This document shows positions 41,122 through 47,366 of a DNA stretch of 57,218 bases, in pieces. How positions within the stretch are numbered: the stretch's first letter is position 1; every line of letters starts with the position of its first letter. Both the position numbers and the translations under genes were made by a program. The DNA is from Bacteroidota bacterium (GTDB lineage Bacteria > Bacteroidota > Bacteroidia > B-17B0 > Aurantibacillaceae): positions 1-57,218 of the forward strand of contig OMJH01000035.1 of NCBI GenBank assembly GCA_900299295.1, written 5' to 3'. The notes beneath the pieces are model-generated. The model saw only the letters and a list, made by a program, of their open reading frames with translations. It ran no database searches and was not told the origin of the DNA.

Positions 41122-43908
41122 TTATTTTAACTTATCTGCTTTTTCCTGCGCCTCCTGTAAAACCTTGTCGGCTTTTGCGTTTGCTTCCTCCGTAATTTTT
41201 TGACACTTCTGGTCAGTTTCCTTTCGTAGTTTTTCAGCCAGTTTTTTGTTCGCAATTTTTTCAATAGGGTTTGATCCTGATTTTTCTAGCTGATCCGCTT
41301 TATCATAGCCTTCTTTTTTCACTTGCGCAGAAAGCGTAGCGGCCTCCGATTTTATGCGTTCAGCCTGAGTCCGCGCTTCGCTGAGAATTTTTTCCGCTTC
41401 TTTTGCGGCTTCTTCTTTTCCTTTGTTGATTAACTCCTCTTTCTTTTCCTCAACGATTTCCTTGAGTTCTTCTTTGACTTCATTTTTTACGTCCTTCATC
41501 GCGTCTTTCATTCCTGTCTTAATCACCGGCTTGGTAACGGTTCCGCCAATTAAAGCGGTAACATCAATTTTTTCGGGAAGTTTGATTTCTTTTCCTGCAC
41601 TTGAAGAAGCTTTACTGAGCCAGCCTTCTACAAGCGAAGTAGCCTGAGTCGGTAAATCCTTGGTTGGAATTTTTAAATTCCAATTGTAATCAATCGTTTG
41701 GTCATAACCCGTAGAACCTGAAATTTCAGCGTCAATGTTTTTTATTTTTGTTTTGAACGGATCAACAATAACTCTTCCGTCTTTCACATTGAAAAATGCA
41801 GCGATATTCTGAAGATCCAGCTTTTTCAAACTTTCATTTTTTAAATTCTCCGCCAGTTTCACAACGGGTTCAAATCCTTCAACGCGCACAGATTTTGTAC
41901 GTAAACTTCCGTTGGCGGTAAGTGTGTTCAGATCCGGCATCATTTCTTCAGTCAGTGTTCCATTCAGGTTTTCCAGGGTGGTAGAGAATTTTCCGAACGC
42001 ATATTTTCCAATGGGTGCAAGTTTTTGAACGGTATTGAAAGCCGCAAAAGTTTTTTGAATATCAAGTTCGTTGATTTCAAGATTGTATTGGATGAGTGGT
42101 TTTTTCTGATTTTTTGTATCGTAAAAGCCGTTCATGGTAACAGAGCCGTCCAATAGATTCATTTTCAGTTTTTCCATTGTAATACGTTCGTTTTTTATGT
42201 GTATTAAACCATTTACTCCGCTGATGTCCAGGTTATCATATTTTATTTTGCCAATGGAAGAATTCAAGGTGAAGTCAATGTTTGCAGGGACAGGTATCAC
42301 TGACAAAGGCACAGTGTCAGCGGAAGCTGAAACGGTATCGGTTGTTTCCGGACCCATTAACTCATCAATGTCCATCATTTTTGAATTCATGGTAAAATTT
42401 CCTTTCAGCAGAGAGTCTTTAAATACGTATTGCATAAAATCTTCAATTTTTCCATTTGCAGTGATGTCACTTTTACCGATCTGCGATTCGAATGAATTCA
42501 ATTCAACAAACTTCGGCGTGAAGGTGAGCAGTAGTTTACGGATATCGATTGGGTAAGTCACAGATTTCGTTCTGTACTTCATGTCGGTGATTTGAAATGT
42601 TCCTGAAGCTTTAAATTCATCGTATTTTTCATTTTCTATCATCGACATCCTCCCGTTCAGTGAAATATCAGATGTAATTATTCCGTTCAGTTCTTCGTCC
42701 TTCTCCAGCGGAATAAATTCCTTTACACTTCCAAGATTGATTTGACCTTTCAGGTTTCCGTCTAAAGCCGGATCAGAAATGGGCGTGTTAACCCGTAAAC
42801 TCATGTCAATAGGATTTCCTCCCATTTCAGCATGAAAACGTTCAAGATTTATTTTTAAATGATCAAGATTAGCGTCCGGGCTGTTTACATCCAAGAGTAC
42901 CTGAATATTGTTTACGGACTTAGGCAAATCAGGATATTTGAACATTCCGTCAGCCACTTCGAGATGGCACCCGAAAGCGGGGAGAAGTGAATCATTGTAA
43001 ATTCCTTTCGCGAATCCGTTCAGTGCCAGTTTACCTTTGGTTTGAATTTTACTGATGCTTCCTGAATACACGACGGGAATTAACGATAGAATAGATTTGA
43101 ATTCCGTATTCGGGCAGGAAAATTTCAGGTCCATTTCAATATCATCAGTCGGCATCGCTACGTAACCTGTAGCTGCAAGTGATAACTCATTTAATTTCAT
43201 TTCATTTTCCTGGAAGGTGAATTTAAATTGCGGCATGTTCATGTTCATTTTCACTTTCACAGAGCTCTTAACGTTAGCCATGTAATGAACACCTCCATAA
43301 AAAAGATTATATTTTTCTATGGTAGCTTCAATATCCATGATAAAATTGTCCTGCGTAAAATCTCCTGCTAGTTTGAAATTTAATTGATCAAGTTTTGTAT
43401 CTAAACTCATACTCTCGTCGTTGTAGCGGATTCTTCCGTTACTGATATCGAATGATTTCAGGCTAAGATTGAATTTGGAAGCGGATGTGTCGGTGGCAAT
43501 TGTATCTGCTGATGGCTTTGTGATGTCCCAATTTGCTTTTCCATCTTTTAAAACATGTGCATAAATCGCAGGATCAACAAGAGAAATACGATTGATTTTA
43601 TATTTTTCTCCTTTGATTACGCTCATGAGGTCAAGATTTAGTTCGGTTTTTCCAATGAAAGCCAATGTGTCTTTTTCAAAATCATTGATTCCCGAAATGC
43701 AGAGGTTGCTAATGCTTAATTTAAAATCAGGAAAGCTGCTGATGAACGAAACGTCAATTTCACCAAAGTTCAGTCGGGCGTTTAGCTGTTTGTTGGCCTC
43801 CGCCTTGGAAAATTCGATAATCTTGTTTTTAAACAGAAATGAAATGGAGACAATAATTATGATTAATATCCCGAATACGATTGCGGTCCATTTCAAAACT
43901 TTTTTCAT
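41122..43908 (-). CDS. AsmA-family protein with C-terminal coiled coil
   Basis: A 928-residue protein with one N-terminal membrane helix (about 4-27) and a long periplasmic AsmA-type beta-rich region. Repeating beta segments and the N-terminal INRISLVDPAIYAHVLKDGK followed by ANWDI are typical of AsmA/YhdP lipid-transfer proteins that bridge the envelope. From about 800 it turns into a 120-residue Ala/Glu/Lys helix-forming tail with EAAKEAEKILSEARTQAERI and similar heptads, a likely coiled coil. It lies 39 bases downstream of the Asp-box T9SS protein on the same strand. The role in lipid traffic is inferred from the family. Confidence 0.82.
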   Translation of the reverse strand: MKKVLKWTAIVFGILIIIIVSISFLFKNKIIEFSKAEANKQLNARLNFGEIDVSFISSFPDFKLSISNLCISGINDFEKDTLAFIGKTELNLDLMSVIKGEKYKINRISLVDPAIYAHVLKDGKANWDITKPSADTIATDTSASKFNLSLKSFDISNGRIRYNDESMSLDTKLDQLNFKLAGDFTQDNFIMDIEATIEKYNLFYGGVHYMANVKSSVKVKMNMNMPQFKFTFQENEMKLNELSLAATGYVAMPTDDIEMDLKFSCPNTEFKSILSLIPVVYSGSISKIQTKGKLALNGFAKGIYNDSLLPAFGCHLEVADGMFKYPDLPKSVNNIQVLLDVNSPDANLDHLKINLERFHAEMGGNPIDMSLRVNTPISDPALDGNLKGQINLGSVKEFIPLEKDEELNGIITSDISLNGRMSMIENEKYDEFKASGTFQITDMKYRTKSVTYPIDIRKLLLTFTPKFVELNSFESQIGKSDITANGKIEDFMQYVFKDSLLKGNFTMNSKMMDIDELMGPETTDTVSASADTVPLSVIPVPANIDFTLNSSIGKIKYDNLDISGVNGLIHIKNERITMEKLKMNLLDGSVTMNGFYDTKNQKKPLIQYNLEINELDIQKTFAAFNTVQKLAPIGKYAFGKFSTTLENLNGTLTEEMMPDLNTLTANGSLRTKSVRVEGFEPVVKLAENLKNESLKKLDLQNIAAFFNVKDGRVIVDPFKTKIKNIDAEISGSTGYDQTIDYNWNLKIPTKDLPTQATSLVEGWLSKASSSAGKEIKLPEKIDVTALIGGTVTKPVIKTGMKDAMKDVKNEVKEELKEIVEEKKEELINKGKEEAAKEAEKILSEARTQAERIKSEAATLSAQVKKEGYDKADQLEKSGSNPIEKIANKKLAEKLRKETDQKCQKITEEANAKADKVLQEAQEKADKLK

Positions 43909-43947: not shown

Positions 43948-46728
43948 TTAACGTATAACCACCATGCGGCCTACTTTTCTTTTTCCATCCGCGTTGAGTG
44001 CACAATAATAAGTTCCTGCTTTTAGCCGAGAAGCATCCCACTGATAAGTTTGTTTACCGGTCGCTAATTTGTCTAATTTTCTGGTTTCGATTATTCTTCC
44101 GCAATCATCCCAGAATTCAAGCGTTACTGCTGAAGGTTTTTTTAGATTGAATTCAATTGTGGTAGCATTTGAAAACGGATTGGGATAATTTTTCAATTCA
44201 ATTTCATCTGAAAAATTTGACAGATTTCCCGAGGAAACGACGTCGTTTACACTAGTAATTTTCGCGCTGTAAATTCCGTTGGCGTGGGTGGCCACAACAA
44301 CCAGTCCGTCAGACTCACGTACATCAATCATGTCACAAACTGCGTTGCCGATGGTGTTTGTTCCTTGCTGAACCCAAACCGTGTTGATTCCCATAAGTGT
44401 ATCTGTACAATACAAACCTGTGCTTGTCGCTAAAAAATATAAGGTACCATCCGCTACATGCAAAAAAGCACCCCACCGAATGGAAGGACTGATTGTGTTG
44501 GCGGCTTCTAAATTTCCTCCGGCCTTTTCCCAGGTGACTCCCGCATCTTTCGAATAAAACACGCTGTAAACATTGTAATTTGAAAAAACCACCATGAGTT
44601 TATTTCCGTCCTGAGGATCAACGGTAATGTTACTAACATATCCGGTGTTTGGGAAAAGTGCAGTAGAGGTGGTTGAAGTGATATCAATCGGTGTCGGAGT
44701 TCCTGAATCGGCATTGTCAACGCGGTAAACTCTTTTTTTATCAGTTCCATAATAAACTCTATTTGCCGGAGTTTTGCTCACCGCAAGTGCTGTCATTTCG
44801 GATAGTGCGGTAGGAATCGAATCGTTCCATTGTACCCAATTGGTACTAATAGAATCGTACTGGTTGGATAGCGGAATTTGAGATAAATCGCTATTTCTCC
44901 ATAAGTATTTTCCACCTGCCAGATACATAATATTATTATTGTTCGGATCAAGAGCGTATGGGTTCATCCACTGATAACCTTTACCGCCAATCGGATCAAT
45001 GCGCCGGAATCCGGTTTGATTTCCGTTCGCGTCAAGCGTTACTTTTACAAGTCTGCGTAAGTTCTGAATCGCGAAATAATAGGCACTCTGGTTATCTGCA
45101 ATTGCGCAATAGGCACCATCACCACCGTGTACATGTTTCCATGGGTTCGTTAGGTTCGCGCTGTTGGTCCACCAGGTTCCATTATCCTGCGCTCCGCCGC
45201 AAATCACATCGTTATTTGAATTTCCGTGATCAATTGCAACCGTGTAAAACATGGTTGTGATGTATCCGTTATTTAAGGGAGACCACACAACAACGGAATC
45301 AAGGTTGTTGTTCGTCCTGAAAACCCCGCCATCATTAGCATTAATCATAATATCAGGATTTGAGGGGAGAAATTCGAGACAATGCTGATCCGGATGATGG
45401 TTGAGGTAGGAGTTGATGGTTGGATAGGCAGAGCCTTCTTCGTAACCACCGATAAAGCTGGTATGTGTTGAATCCTGAAATGCGGTTGTTGAGCGGTATA
45501 AATTAGTTCCTCCTAAAAAAACAACATTTGAATTTCCGGGTTTTACTTTCACGAACATGTCATAAGAATCTTGTGTATGGAATTTATCGAATATGCCGCC
45601 CGTTGCCGGAAGATTGATTGACAAATCAATCCAATTTCCACCTAAGCTGTCTCCGTTTCCGGATATGTAATTGTATTTCCAGAGACTATTCCAATGCGCA
45701 TCGCCCTGAAAGTCGATTACTTTCTTCCCGAACCCGGGCGTGTTGGCCAGAAAATAAATTTCATTTTCGTTATTTGGATTAATACCCATTACTATTCGGT
45801 TGTAGGCTGAAGGAAAACCTGCAGGAGTAATATTTGTAAAAGTTATGCCATCTGAGGAACGCCATATTCCTTTTTGTGTTCCATCATCGCTAAGGGTTGC
45901 GTAAATGATTCCGTTTGAAGTGGCAGCCACCTCGGTGAAATAAGAATTACCTGAGCGAACGGTTGTCCAGCTGGTGCCGCCATTGATACTTCGGTATATT
46001 GATCCATAGGTTGCGGCATAAATTTCCGAAACAGAATCAGGAGCTGAAATATCGTTTGCAATTGAATAAACTATTTGCCAGCCGGTGGTAAATCCGTTCG
46101 GATTGCCAGAAGCAGTGGAAACAAGCGATTGCCAGGTAAGACCGCTGTCAATGGATTTAAAAATCCCATCACCTAAAAAATAAGCACTTCCGCCTCCGCC
46201 TGCAGATGCCCATGGATTACCACCTCCGTAATACCAAACATTTTGGTGATTGGGTCGTGTGTCCTGCGTCAGGCAGTTGGCTCCGCGAAGTTGTGAAAGC
46301 GTATTTGTCATTGTCCAGTTCTGTCCTCCGTCGGTGCTTAACCACATGCCGCCGGAGGTTGTACCTGCGAGTAAGCGATTCTCATTGGATGCGTCTAAAG
46401 CAAAAGCGCTGGTTTTGCCGCCTACGTTCCAGGGGCCGCGTGCTGTAAATGGAGTAGAGAATGTTGTTTTTTCATTGGAGGCATTCGCATCATTTGGTAA
46501 TGATGCAGAAAAAGCGATTTCTCTCGCGCGTGCATCCTGAGGAATTTTACCCGTTGCCGGATCGGCGAGGCGTTTTAAATCCCATTGCATTCTTTCCAGG
46601 GCTTCGTCTTCCGGAGAAAAGCCTGAGTTAGTTTTAATTTTGGAAGTTTGAGAGGTGGCTGCAGGTTGCCCGCAAAGGAGTGCAAGAGTAAGTAATGAAA
46701 TAATTTTTTTTGCGTATTGAAAATTCAT
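43948..46728 (-). CDS. Large secreted Asp-box/VPS10-like protein with T9SS type-A sorting domain
   Basis: A 926-residue exported protein from the ATG at 46728. The signal peptide ends near QPAATSQ; the frame is open to 46809 but that would put 27 unlike residues ahead of it. It carries several Asp-box (S-x-D-x-G-x-x-W) motifs on beta-propeller blades: STDGGQNWT, SIDSGLTWQ, SINGGTSWT and SKDAGVTWEK. This is the layout of sialidase-like and sortilin-like propellers, often annotated as glycosyl hydrolases without proof. The C-terminal 85 residues, KNYPNPFSNATTIEFNLKKP to GRMVVIR, form a T9SS type-A domain for export and surface attachment. It precedes the AsmA gene. Confidence 0.85.
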   Translation of the reverse strand: MNFQYAKKIISLLTLALLCGQPAATSQTSKIKTNSGFSPEDEALERMQWDLKRLADPATGKIPQDARAREIAFSASLPNDANASNEKTTFSTPFTARGPWNVGGKTSAFALDASNENRLLAGTTSGGMWLSTDGGQNWTMTNTLSQLRGANCLTQDTRPNHQNVWYYGGGNPWASAGGGGSAYFLGDGIFKSIDSGLTWQSLVSTASGNPNGFTTGWQIVYSIANDISAPDSVSEIYAATYGSIYRSINGGTSWTTVRSGNSYFTEVAATSNGIIYATLSDDGTQKGIWRSSDGITFTNITPAGFPSAYNRIVMGINPNNENEIYFLANTPGFGKKVIDFQGDAHWNSLWKYNYISGNGDSLGGNWIDLSINLPATGGIFDKFHTQDSYDMFVKVKPGNSNVVFLGGTNLYRSTTAFQDSTHTSFIGGYEEGSAYPTINSYLNHHPDQHCLEFLPSNPDIMINANDGGVFRTNNNLDSVVVWSPLNNGYITTMFYTVAIDHGNSNNDVICGGAQDNGTWWTNSANLTNPWKHVHGGDGAYCAIADNQSAYYFAIQNLRRLVKVTLDANGNQTGFRRIDPIGGKGYQWMNPYALDPNNNNIMYLAGGKYLWRNSDLSQIPLSNQYDSISTNWVQWNDSIPTALSEMTALAVSKTPANRVYYGTDKKRVYRVDNADSGTPTPIDITSTTSTALFPNTGYVSNITVDPQDGNKLMVVFSNYNVYSVFYSKDAGVTWEKAGGNLEAANTISPSIRWGAFLHVADGTLYFLATSTGLYCTDTLMGINTVWVQQGTNTIGNAVCDMIDVRESDGLVVVATHANGIYSAKITSVNDVVSSGNLSNFSDEIELKNYPNPFSNATTIEFNLKKPSAVTLEFWDDCGRIIETRKLDKLATGKQTYQWDASRLKAGTYYCALNADGKRKVGRMVVIR

Positions 46729-47030
46729 ATTTCTGTTTTGAGGTAAAATTACAGATTTACATTGGGGATTTAAAGTTTTGTGTTGTAGAATCTTTGGTAT
46801 TTTTTCCATGATTTTCGCTAAACTAAATAGATTTTCATTGGAGGCTGAGCGGCAGGGTAAATAAGTAAGGTCGATTTTACCAATGAAATTCGCAGGTATG
46901 ATTGTTAATATCTAGTGGGAAAATTTTTTTACCTCCCGTATTCTACCAATGAAATTTAATTTCATATTTGTCTCACCGAAATAGTTCGGAATAAACTTAA
47001 TCTCATTTAAGAGAAAAAAACAAAAACCAC
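46729..47030. promoter_or_regulatory. Divergent control region with three CCAATGAAA copies and hairpins
   Basis: A 302-base gap between the T9SS protein (minus) and the SWIB-H1 gene (plus). Seen: CCAATGAAA at 46833-46841 (minus strand), 46880-46888 and 46946-46954 (plus strand). The last is part of a perfect palindrome ATGAAAT-TTA-ATTTCAT (46949-46965). A second hairpin CCGAA-ATAG-TTCGG lies at 46976-46989. No strict TAnnTTTG box is visible. The repeats look like operator sites for one or both divergent genes (inference). Confidence 0.6.
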
Positions 47031-47366
47031 ATGGCAAAAAAAGCAACAAAAAAAGCTGCCAAGAAAGCTCCTAAGAAAGCTACAAAGAAGGCAGCAAAGA
47101 AATCTGGAAAGAAACGTGTACCAAATCCAGCATTTATGAAACCTCTTCAACCCAGCGCAGCATTAGCTGAAGTAGTTGGTAACAAGGCGATGCCTCGTAC
47201 TGAAGTGGTGAAAAAAATGTGGCAGTACATTAAGAAGAATGGTCTGCAAGATAAGAAGGTAAAAATTATGATTAACGCTGACGCAAAATTGAAACCAATT
47301 TTCGGCGGTAAAGGTCAAGTTTCAATGTTTGAAATGGCTAAGCACATTTCCAAGCAATTGAAATAA
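47031..47366 (+). CDS. SWIB/MDM2-domain protein with histone H1-like tail
   Basis: A 111-residue protein. Residues 1-30 are an Ala/Lys tail (repeats of KKAAKKAPKKATKK type) like the C-termini of histone H1 and of bacterial H1-like proteins. Residues 35-110 are a SWIB domain: FMKPLQPSAALAEVVGNKAM, PRTEVVKKMWQYIKKNGLQD and ADAKLKPIFGGKGQVSMFEM. It is likely a small DNA-binding or nucleoid protein; comparable SWIB-H1 fusions are known in Chlamydia and Bacteroidota. It is monocistronic with a strong terminator and an unusually structured upstream region. Confidence 0.9.
   Translation: MAKKATKKAAKKAPKKATKKAAKKSGKKRVPNPAFMKPLQPSAALAEVVGNKAMPRTEVVKKMWQYIKKNGLQDKKVKIMINADAKLKPIFGGKGQVSMFEMAKHISKQLK

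Follow-up and report, generated by a model that had tools for sequence, protein, structure and literature searches.

The locus and its divergent genes

Within the window, by which is meant the whole stretch of DNA analysed (57,218 nucleotides), two divergent genes are separated by an intergenic region of 302 bp, 46729-47030. The features of relevance are given below, with scores from a PWM trained without the window's own genome.

43948..46728, minus strand: divergent neighbour, a T9SS sorting-tail protein (PF18962, E 3.3e-9)
46755..46772, plus strand: putative operator site 1, ATTTACATTGGGGATTTA, PWM 14.7 bits
46831..46848, plus strand: putative operator site 2, ATTTTCATTGGAGGCTGA, degenerate right half, PWM 7.9 bits; copy 1 of the initial annotation, with an exact 9-mer
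46873..46890, minus strand: putative operator site 3, AATTTCATTGGTAAAATC, the best of the five, PWM 17.1 bits; copy 2 of the initial annotation
46908..46925, plus strand: putative operator site 4, ATATCTAGTGGGAAAATT, degenerate, PWM 9.5 bits; missed by the initial annotation
46939..46956, minus strand: putative operator site 5, AATTTCATTGGTAGAATA, PWM 13.8 bits; copy 3 of the initial annotation
46949..46965: palindrome ATGAAAT-TTA-ATTTCAT, probably incidental
46963..46970, plus strand: possible -7 box, CATATTTG, the nearest one-mismatch match to TAnnTTTG
46976..46989: hairpin CCGAA-ATAG-TTCGG, probably incidental
47031..47366, plus strand: SWIB-H1 gene, 111 aa, with a Lys/Ala-rich N-terminal tail ahead of a SWIB/MDM2 domain; the gene is the presumed target of the array and its product the presumed binder

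What are the two genes? They had been taken to encode a chromatin-type SWIB-H1 protein and a T9SS exoprotein, and profiles support both identifications, that of SWIB-H1 being a match to Pfam PF02201 with E 1.7e-27 and 95.4 bits, the cut-off being 25. The AlphaFold model of SWIB-H1 has the SWIB/MDM2 fold, with a pLDDT of ~90 over most of the domain, and its best Foldseek match is 1v31 (E 1.1e-6). The translation opens MAKKATKKAAKKAPKK..., i.e., a lysine-rich H1-like tail is joined to the SWIB domain, and the arrangement is similar in many aligned relatives. For the neighbour, a start at 46728 seems preferable to one at 46809. The suggestion that an operator here would be shared with that neighbour gains no support from the flanking families of SWIB loci: among 647 flanking ORFs at 151 loci, none of the 14 most recurrent families listed, apart from a SWIB-antisense ORF, occurs at more than 7 of 87 Bacteroidota loci. 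With no flanking family going along with the array described below, joint control with the T9SS gene was rejected.

The occurrence of SWIB is patchy, with the gene in 17 of 60 relatives, 51 of 395 genomes of the class and 27 of 87 genomes of the family, and the one other genome of the window's genus in the set, which is 78% complete, has no SWIB match. Phage or plasmid origin was considered and rejected: with a cut-off of 1e-5 tblastn gives no SWIB match among 50,697 phage records, 40 of 72,556 plasmid records contain a match, and at ten viral-contig SWIB loci no operator site scores 11 bits (two of these have 70-82 bp of upstream sequence, and two with ParB fusions were scanned before the fusion ORF). 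In Microvirga megaplasmids the number of SWIB matches per plasmid is one to three, and for some of these matches no gene is listed. The fusions, on two IMG/VR viral contigs (L262, 456-2279, and L263, 762-2231), are ORFs in which Pfam recognises ParB_N and/or HTH_ParB ahead of a C-terminal SWIB, and agree with a DNA-related role for the SWIB domain.

From a common word to a longer dyad

The initial annotation drew attention to three copies of CCAATGAAA in 122 intergenic bases, one of them inverted, and the coordinates are confirmed: 46833-46841 (-), 46880-46888 (+) and 46946-46954 (+). Two more copies in the window, at 43652 (+) and 46470 (-), are both within genes. In the 2.82 Mb assembly the word occurs 114 times, compared with 39 for the reversed word, and by a rough Poisson estimate the genome-wide value for three copies inside 122 bp is 0.0014. 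When 30 of the 114 were sampled, 25 were in ORFs and five intergenic, three of those five being the present cluster. SWIB-less relatives also show an excess over the reversed word (118 vs 33 in G024, 97 vs 38 in G003), and in genus g2 the ratio of the two is independent of SWIB status (p 0.34). As the 9-mer is common and, in the sample, mostly coding, it was rejected as the functional unit; what survives is that the words are the cores of an imperfect dyad of ~16-18 bp, TTTTCA-NN-GGNRAAA.

In other genera a longer unit, such as ATTTTTCATTGGGGAAATT, is present several times before SWIB genes, often in inverted orientation. Merging of duplicates left 151 SWIB-gene upstreams, all from loci with a locatable ATG (the others were dropped, uncounted); the 74 from Bacteroidota include the window's own, and some gene starts were guessed from the first residues. 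When spaced tetranucleotides were counted in 73 non-redundant Bacteroidota upstreams the motif was on top, with TTTC-N6-GAAA in 25 compared with 1.6 expected, and in the same count TCAT-N2-GGGA had a z of 19. An EM model seeded with TTTC-N6-GAAA alone, and with the window's genome left out of training, converged on TTTTCA-(TT/TA/GA)-GG-G-R-AAA; its most informative positions are the core C, G, G (1.5, 2.0 and 1.4 bits), and it has sites in 63 of the 73 training upstreams. Five-fold cross-validation yielded 149 held-out sites in 56 of the 74 Bacteroidota upstreams, 5.05 per kb vs 0.21 per kb in flanks, a background made up largely of coding DNA and lower in AT than promoters are; the composition controls are reversed and permuted models, and the reversed model gave 3 sites.

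The 64 upstreams from other phyla are nearly all from MAGs, with the phylum taken from record titles, so mis-binned contigs are possible among them, and it is with this proviso that 33 sites in 62 such upstreams, all outside training, are to be read (1.36 per kb vs 0.04 in flanks; one site with the reversed model and a mean of 0.3 with permuted models). Some operator matches outside Bacteroidota are from isolates, among them Corallococcus terminator (L096) and Beta proteobacterium AAP65 (L100). When scored without cross-validation, 17 of the 74 Bacteroidota and 39 of the 62 other-phyla SWIB upstreams are without a 12-bit site. De novo dyad counts in the other phyla did not have the motif in the lead: in Betaproteobacteria there were weak hints only, the five Gemmatimonadota gave other dyads and four sequences of Bdellovibrio type gave nothing. 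The top dyads of 21 non-redundant Verrucomicrobia upstreams are of a different element, GCTGATTAA, with AGAG nearby, and judging by this the phylum may use an additional site before SWIB.

From comparison of these upstreams we regard the predicted operator family of bacterial SWIB genes as real. As far as searches show it is undescribed so far; among the open-licence PMC papers listed, none was evident from its title or abstract start as dealing with a bacterial SWIB operator or this motif.

Five sites in the window

The summed PWM score of the five sites of 46729-47030 is 63.0, which was reached by none of 1000 shuffles of the region, and among 302-bp segments taken along the 57 kb in steps of 50 bp, this region scored highest. 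Phylogenetic footprinting of the corresponding region, proposed in the initial annotation, has the same site type recurring in arrays before SWIB genes, both in relatives and in other phyla, and it is near certain, as far as sequence comparison can take it, that the region is a multi-site operator of the SWIB-H1 gene. The multi-site character initially perceived is thus retained, but the number is about five by PWM and not three.

The nested palindrome and the hairpin are present where they had been noted. Their special role is not upheld, as every 300 bp of this window holds on average 0.30 perfect palindromes with 7-bp arms and a spacer of 0-5, and 0.26 hairpins of the CCGAA/TTCGG kind, i.e., both are at chance level, and they were rejected as operator parts.

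How does the array compare with those of relatives? Its five sites score 7.9-17.1 bits, whereas the best relative seen, G176, has twelve of 12.5-24.1 bits within 427 bp of its SWIB upstream, and the array in the window's genome looks partly decayed, a putative weakened member of the operator family. This weakness, together with the abundance and coding bias of the 9-mer and the chance frequency of the palindrome and hairpin, is what speaks for an accident, a frequent word having come together by chance in intergenic DNA that is rich in AT. However, a model derived from other genomes scores the region above every shuffle, and conservation, lack of which in relatives had been named beforehand as refuting a function, was found there, as were phasing and success in cross-validation, so that an accident is scarcely credible.

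Phasing and the promoter

Adjacent sites in Bacteroidota upstreams are mostly 20-21, 31-33, 43, 53-55, 65-66 or 76-78 bp apart (n 97), with R 0.73 for a period of ~11.1 bp; the nominal p of 3e-23 overstates the case because related arrays are not fully independent. Same-strand pairs have R 0.86 and opposite-strand pairs 0.60. Tandem duplication as the source of the spacing would yield multiples of one unit and not steps of 11. In relatives the predicted sites are strung on one face of the helix, with centres ~21, 32, 43, 54, 66 and 77 bp apart, and they lie upstream of the promoter or overlap it. The spacings in the window are 76, 42, 35 and 31 bp, three of which fit the relatives' phase while that of 35 bp does not. 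A search of 395 genomes for strict tandem site pairs, a pattern that misses arrays with inverted or degenerate sites, that of the window among them, gave three in the G176 SWIB upstream and one each in G306 and G233; the reversed control gave one, in G166.

The Bacteroidota -7 consensus is TAnnTTTG. It occurs exactly at -90..-25 in 38 of the 74 Bacteroidota SWIB upstreams, compared with 9 for the reversed word, and in those 38 the centre of every 12-bit site precedes its start, the nearest by 8 bp. A scan of the sigma-70 type yielded one promoter-like site, below the 2.3 expected, and one for terminators yielded two, compared with 0.8 expected, both within the SWIB gene on the opposite strand; on these grounds a sigma-70-type promoter and a terminator were rejected.

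By eye, several SWIB upstreams share an element TTGTTAATA / TATTAACAA (46902-46910 in the window) that lies between the operator sites and the promoter, and one like it precedes genes for the lysine-rich tail on its own. The latter ORFs, L234 (G000 C164) 1079-1162 and L232 (G001 C739) 1224-1319 on the minus strand, of 27 and 31 aa, start MAKKATKK... and correspond to the H1-like beginning of the SWIB gene but lack the SWIB domain; that of G001 has an exact operator site ~195 bp upstream. These ORFs possibly encode nucleoid proteins that consist of the tail alone.

Sites elsewhere in genomes and the identity of the binder

What binds the array? For a genome-wide count the exact site was defined as TTTTCAKWGGNRAAA, the sites upstream of SWIB itself being included (6 of the 60 of G176). 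The 51 genomes with SWIB have 380 such sites (control 48) and the 344 without it 563 (control 362), p 2.6e-12. An excess of at least 10 sites is found in 11 of the 51 vs none of the 344 (p 6e-11), and of at least 6 in 15 of the 51 vs 7 of the 344, with those seven having an excess of 6-9; in 13 of the 51 the excess is at most 1. Part of the contrast may be owed to composition, since in the stretches sampled the GC content of SWIB-less G145 is 49% vs 39-45% in G073, G176 and G112 (that of SWIB-less G260 is 43%). Four genera contain genomes of both sorts. In genus g47 sites and control number 60/0, 39/1, 19/0 and 4/0 with SWIB and 3/1, 1/1 and 0/1 without, and in the other three the contrast is small; with more members of genus g2 the raw numbers differ, 3.00 vs 1.04 (p 0.0005), while after subtraction of the control the difference falls short of significance (p 0.08).

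In the initial annotation it was thought that SWIB-H1 might regulate its own gene. Autoregulation gains support, short of proof, in that genome-wide site numbers track SWIB presence; the window's own genome has no genome-wide excess of exact sites (4 vs 2 in the control). SWIB itself is the simplest binder, and from the comparative evidence we put the balance somewhat in favour of SWIB-H1 binding the operator.

Alternatively, a separate transcription factor, gained and lost along with SWIB though unlinked to it, could bind the phased array and control SWIB. The dyad does resemble the classical site of a dimeric factor, and there are two exceptions to the correlation that such a factor could account for: in G400 the sites number 9 and the control 0 although the search found no SWIB there, and G073 has many sites genome-wide yet a weak array before SWIB. 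However, the factor would have to follow a patchy gene across several phyla, and no flanking family accompanies the array; we consider it unlikely, though a serious competitor.

In 20 chosen regions of G176, 40 sites fall in coding DNA and 32 between genes, the SWIB array accounting for 12 of the 32, so most of the sites in these regions are not promoter sites. At five of its loci (L273, L275, L277, L280, L281) several copies lie across or directly next to a start codon, CCAATGAAAAA being the beginning of M-K-K proteins, and some copies may be start-codon context and not regulatory. At another, L282 (C16, 1568-1695), an ORF and a gene that by eye is lysyl-tRNA-synthetase-like have between them three operator sites, at spacings of 43 and 67 bp, a trio which possibly marks a further target.

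The central pair of the site is TT, TA or GA depending on lineage, and this holds genome-wide as in SWIB upstreams; in G220 21 of 28 sites have TA at the centre, and in G094 13 of 17. Could the array act by intrinsic curvature, with DNA bent by the T- and A-runs that end each unit, phased at ~11 bp, and the promoter boosted without any dedicated protein? The runs and the helical spacing are as such a proposal would have them. Set against it are the concentration of information in the core C, G, G, the lineage-specific core pair away from SWIB too, in G220 and G094, and the way in which isolated sites across genomes keep step with SWIB, and we consider it very improbable.

The type of centre covaries most with SWIB residues 60 and 103, z 19.4 each with phylogeny still in. 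Phylogenetically independent pairs on supported branches number two and are underpowered. With all branches, unsupported ones included, there are 12 pairs, and residues 60 (4.5 vs 0) and 103 (2.9 vs 0) rank first and second of 82 columns, but columns 40 (0 vs 3.4) and 78 (1.5 vs 4.6) deviate just as strongly the other way, which leaves residue 60 as the one notable column. It is suggestive that this residue may follow the site centre.

The best explanation overall, with a probability of about 0.6, is that the region is a self-controlling operator of a SWIB-H1 nucleoid protein. Each imperfect dyad would be read by the SWIB domain, probably as a dimer, while the lysine-rich H1-like tail would hold neighbouring DNA, and several molecules would form one nucleoprotein patch that limits the supply of SWIB-H1. 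Binding by SWIB-H1, dimerisation, cooperation and autorepression are all inferred; the sign would more likely be repression than activation, though this is a guess. More broadly, SWIB-H1 proteins could be an unrecognised class of sequence-specific self-regulating chromatin proteins that polymerise on one DNA face with a pitch of ~11 bp, whose centre specificity shifts by lineage together with their genome-wide sites, and whose gene and operator are kept together across phyla; for this wider proposal the odds appear to us to be even.

Comparison with known systems

The plant plastid nucleoid protein SWIB-4 binds and compacts DNA and complements an E. coli hns mutant (Melonek et al. 2012, as described in PMC4154389). 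Like SWIB-H1 it is a small basic protein with a histone-H1-like motif beside its SWIB domain, and it differs in that the account in PMC4154389, as far as it is drawn on here, does not report a specific operator or autoregulation. Closer in being a stand-alone bacterial SWIB domain protein is Wcw_0377 of Waddlia chondrophila, whose binding is chromatin-like: it was bound all along the genome, with 1920 ChIP-seq peaks that the parts of PMC6426960 considered do not take further. The same source, in whose main text the stem 'autoregul' is absent, states that the DNA-binding residues of the SWIB domain are not known. Given that genome-long binding, SWIB is not, on the part of PMC6426960 consulted, an established sequence-specific DNA-binding fold. 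The yeast UAF subunit Uaf30 (PDB 7z0o) is a sequence relative of SWIB-H1, E 5.5e-9. It is in a promoter complex, and a subset of particles has density towards DNA (PMC9020658); it differs in that the part past its N-terminal winged helix is unresolved, and sequence-specific contact is not reported in what was drawn from that paper.

SWIB domains occur in plastids and in eukaryotic chromatin remodellers as well as in bacteria. An operator that is conserved but varies in its core between lineages, together with residue 60, which may follow that core, would make SWIB-DNA recognition directly testable in a bacterial protein of 111 residues, and the circuit proposed would be the first regulatory one for a bacterial relative of chromatin proteins.

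Phased repeats of ~21-22 bp bound by the product of the adjacent gene are a feature of plasmid replication origins, where they are termed iterons. Here, in contrast, the gene is SWIB, orientations are mixed, spacing can be any whole number of turns and the location is a promoter. An iteron array was rejected, as the neighbours are SWIB, the T9SS-tail protein and a glycosyltransferase, with no adjacent replication initiator gene. H-NS and Fis, abundant DNA architects, are autoregulated and occupy several sites in their own promoters. While those proteins and their sites are unrelated to SWIB-H1 and its array, a promoter with several sites is what they have in common.
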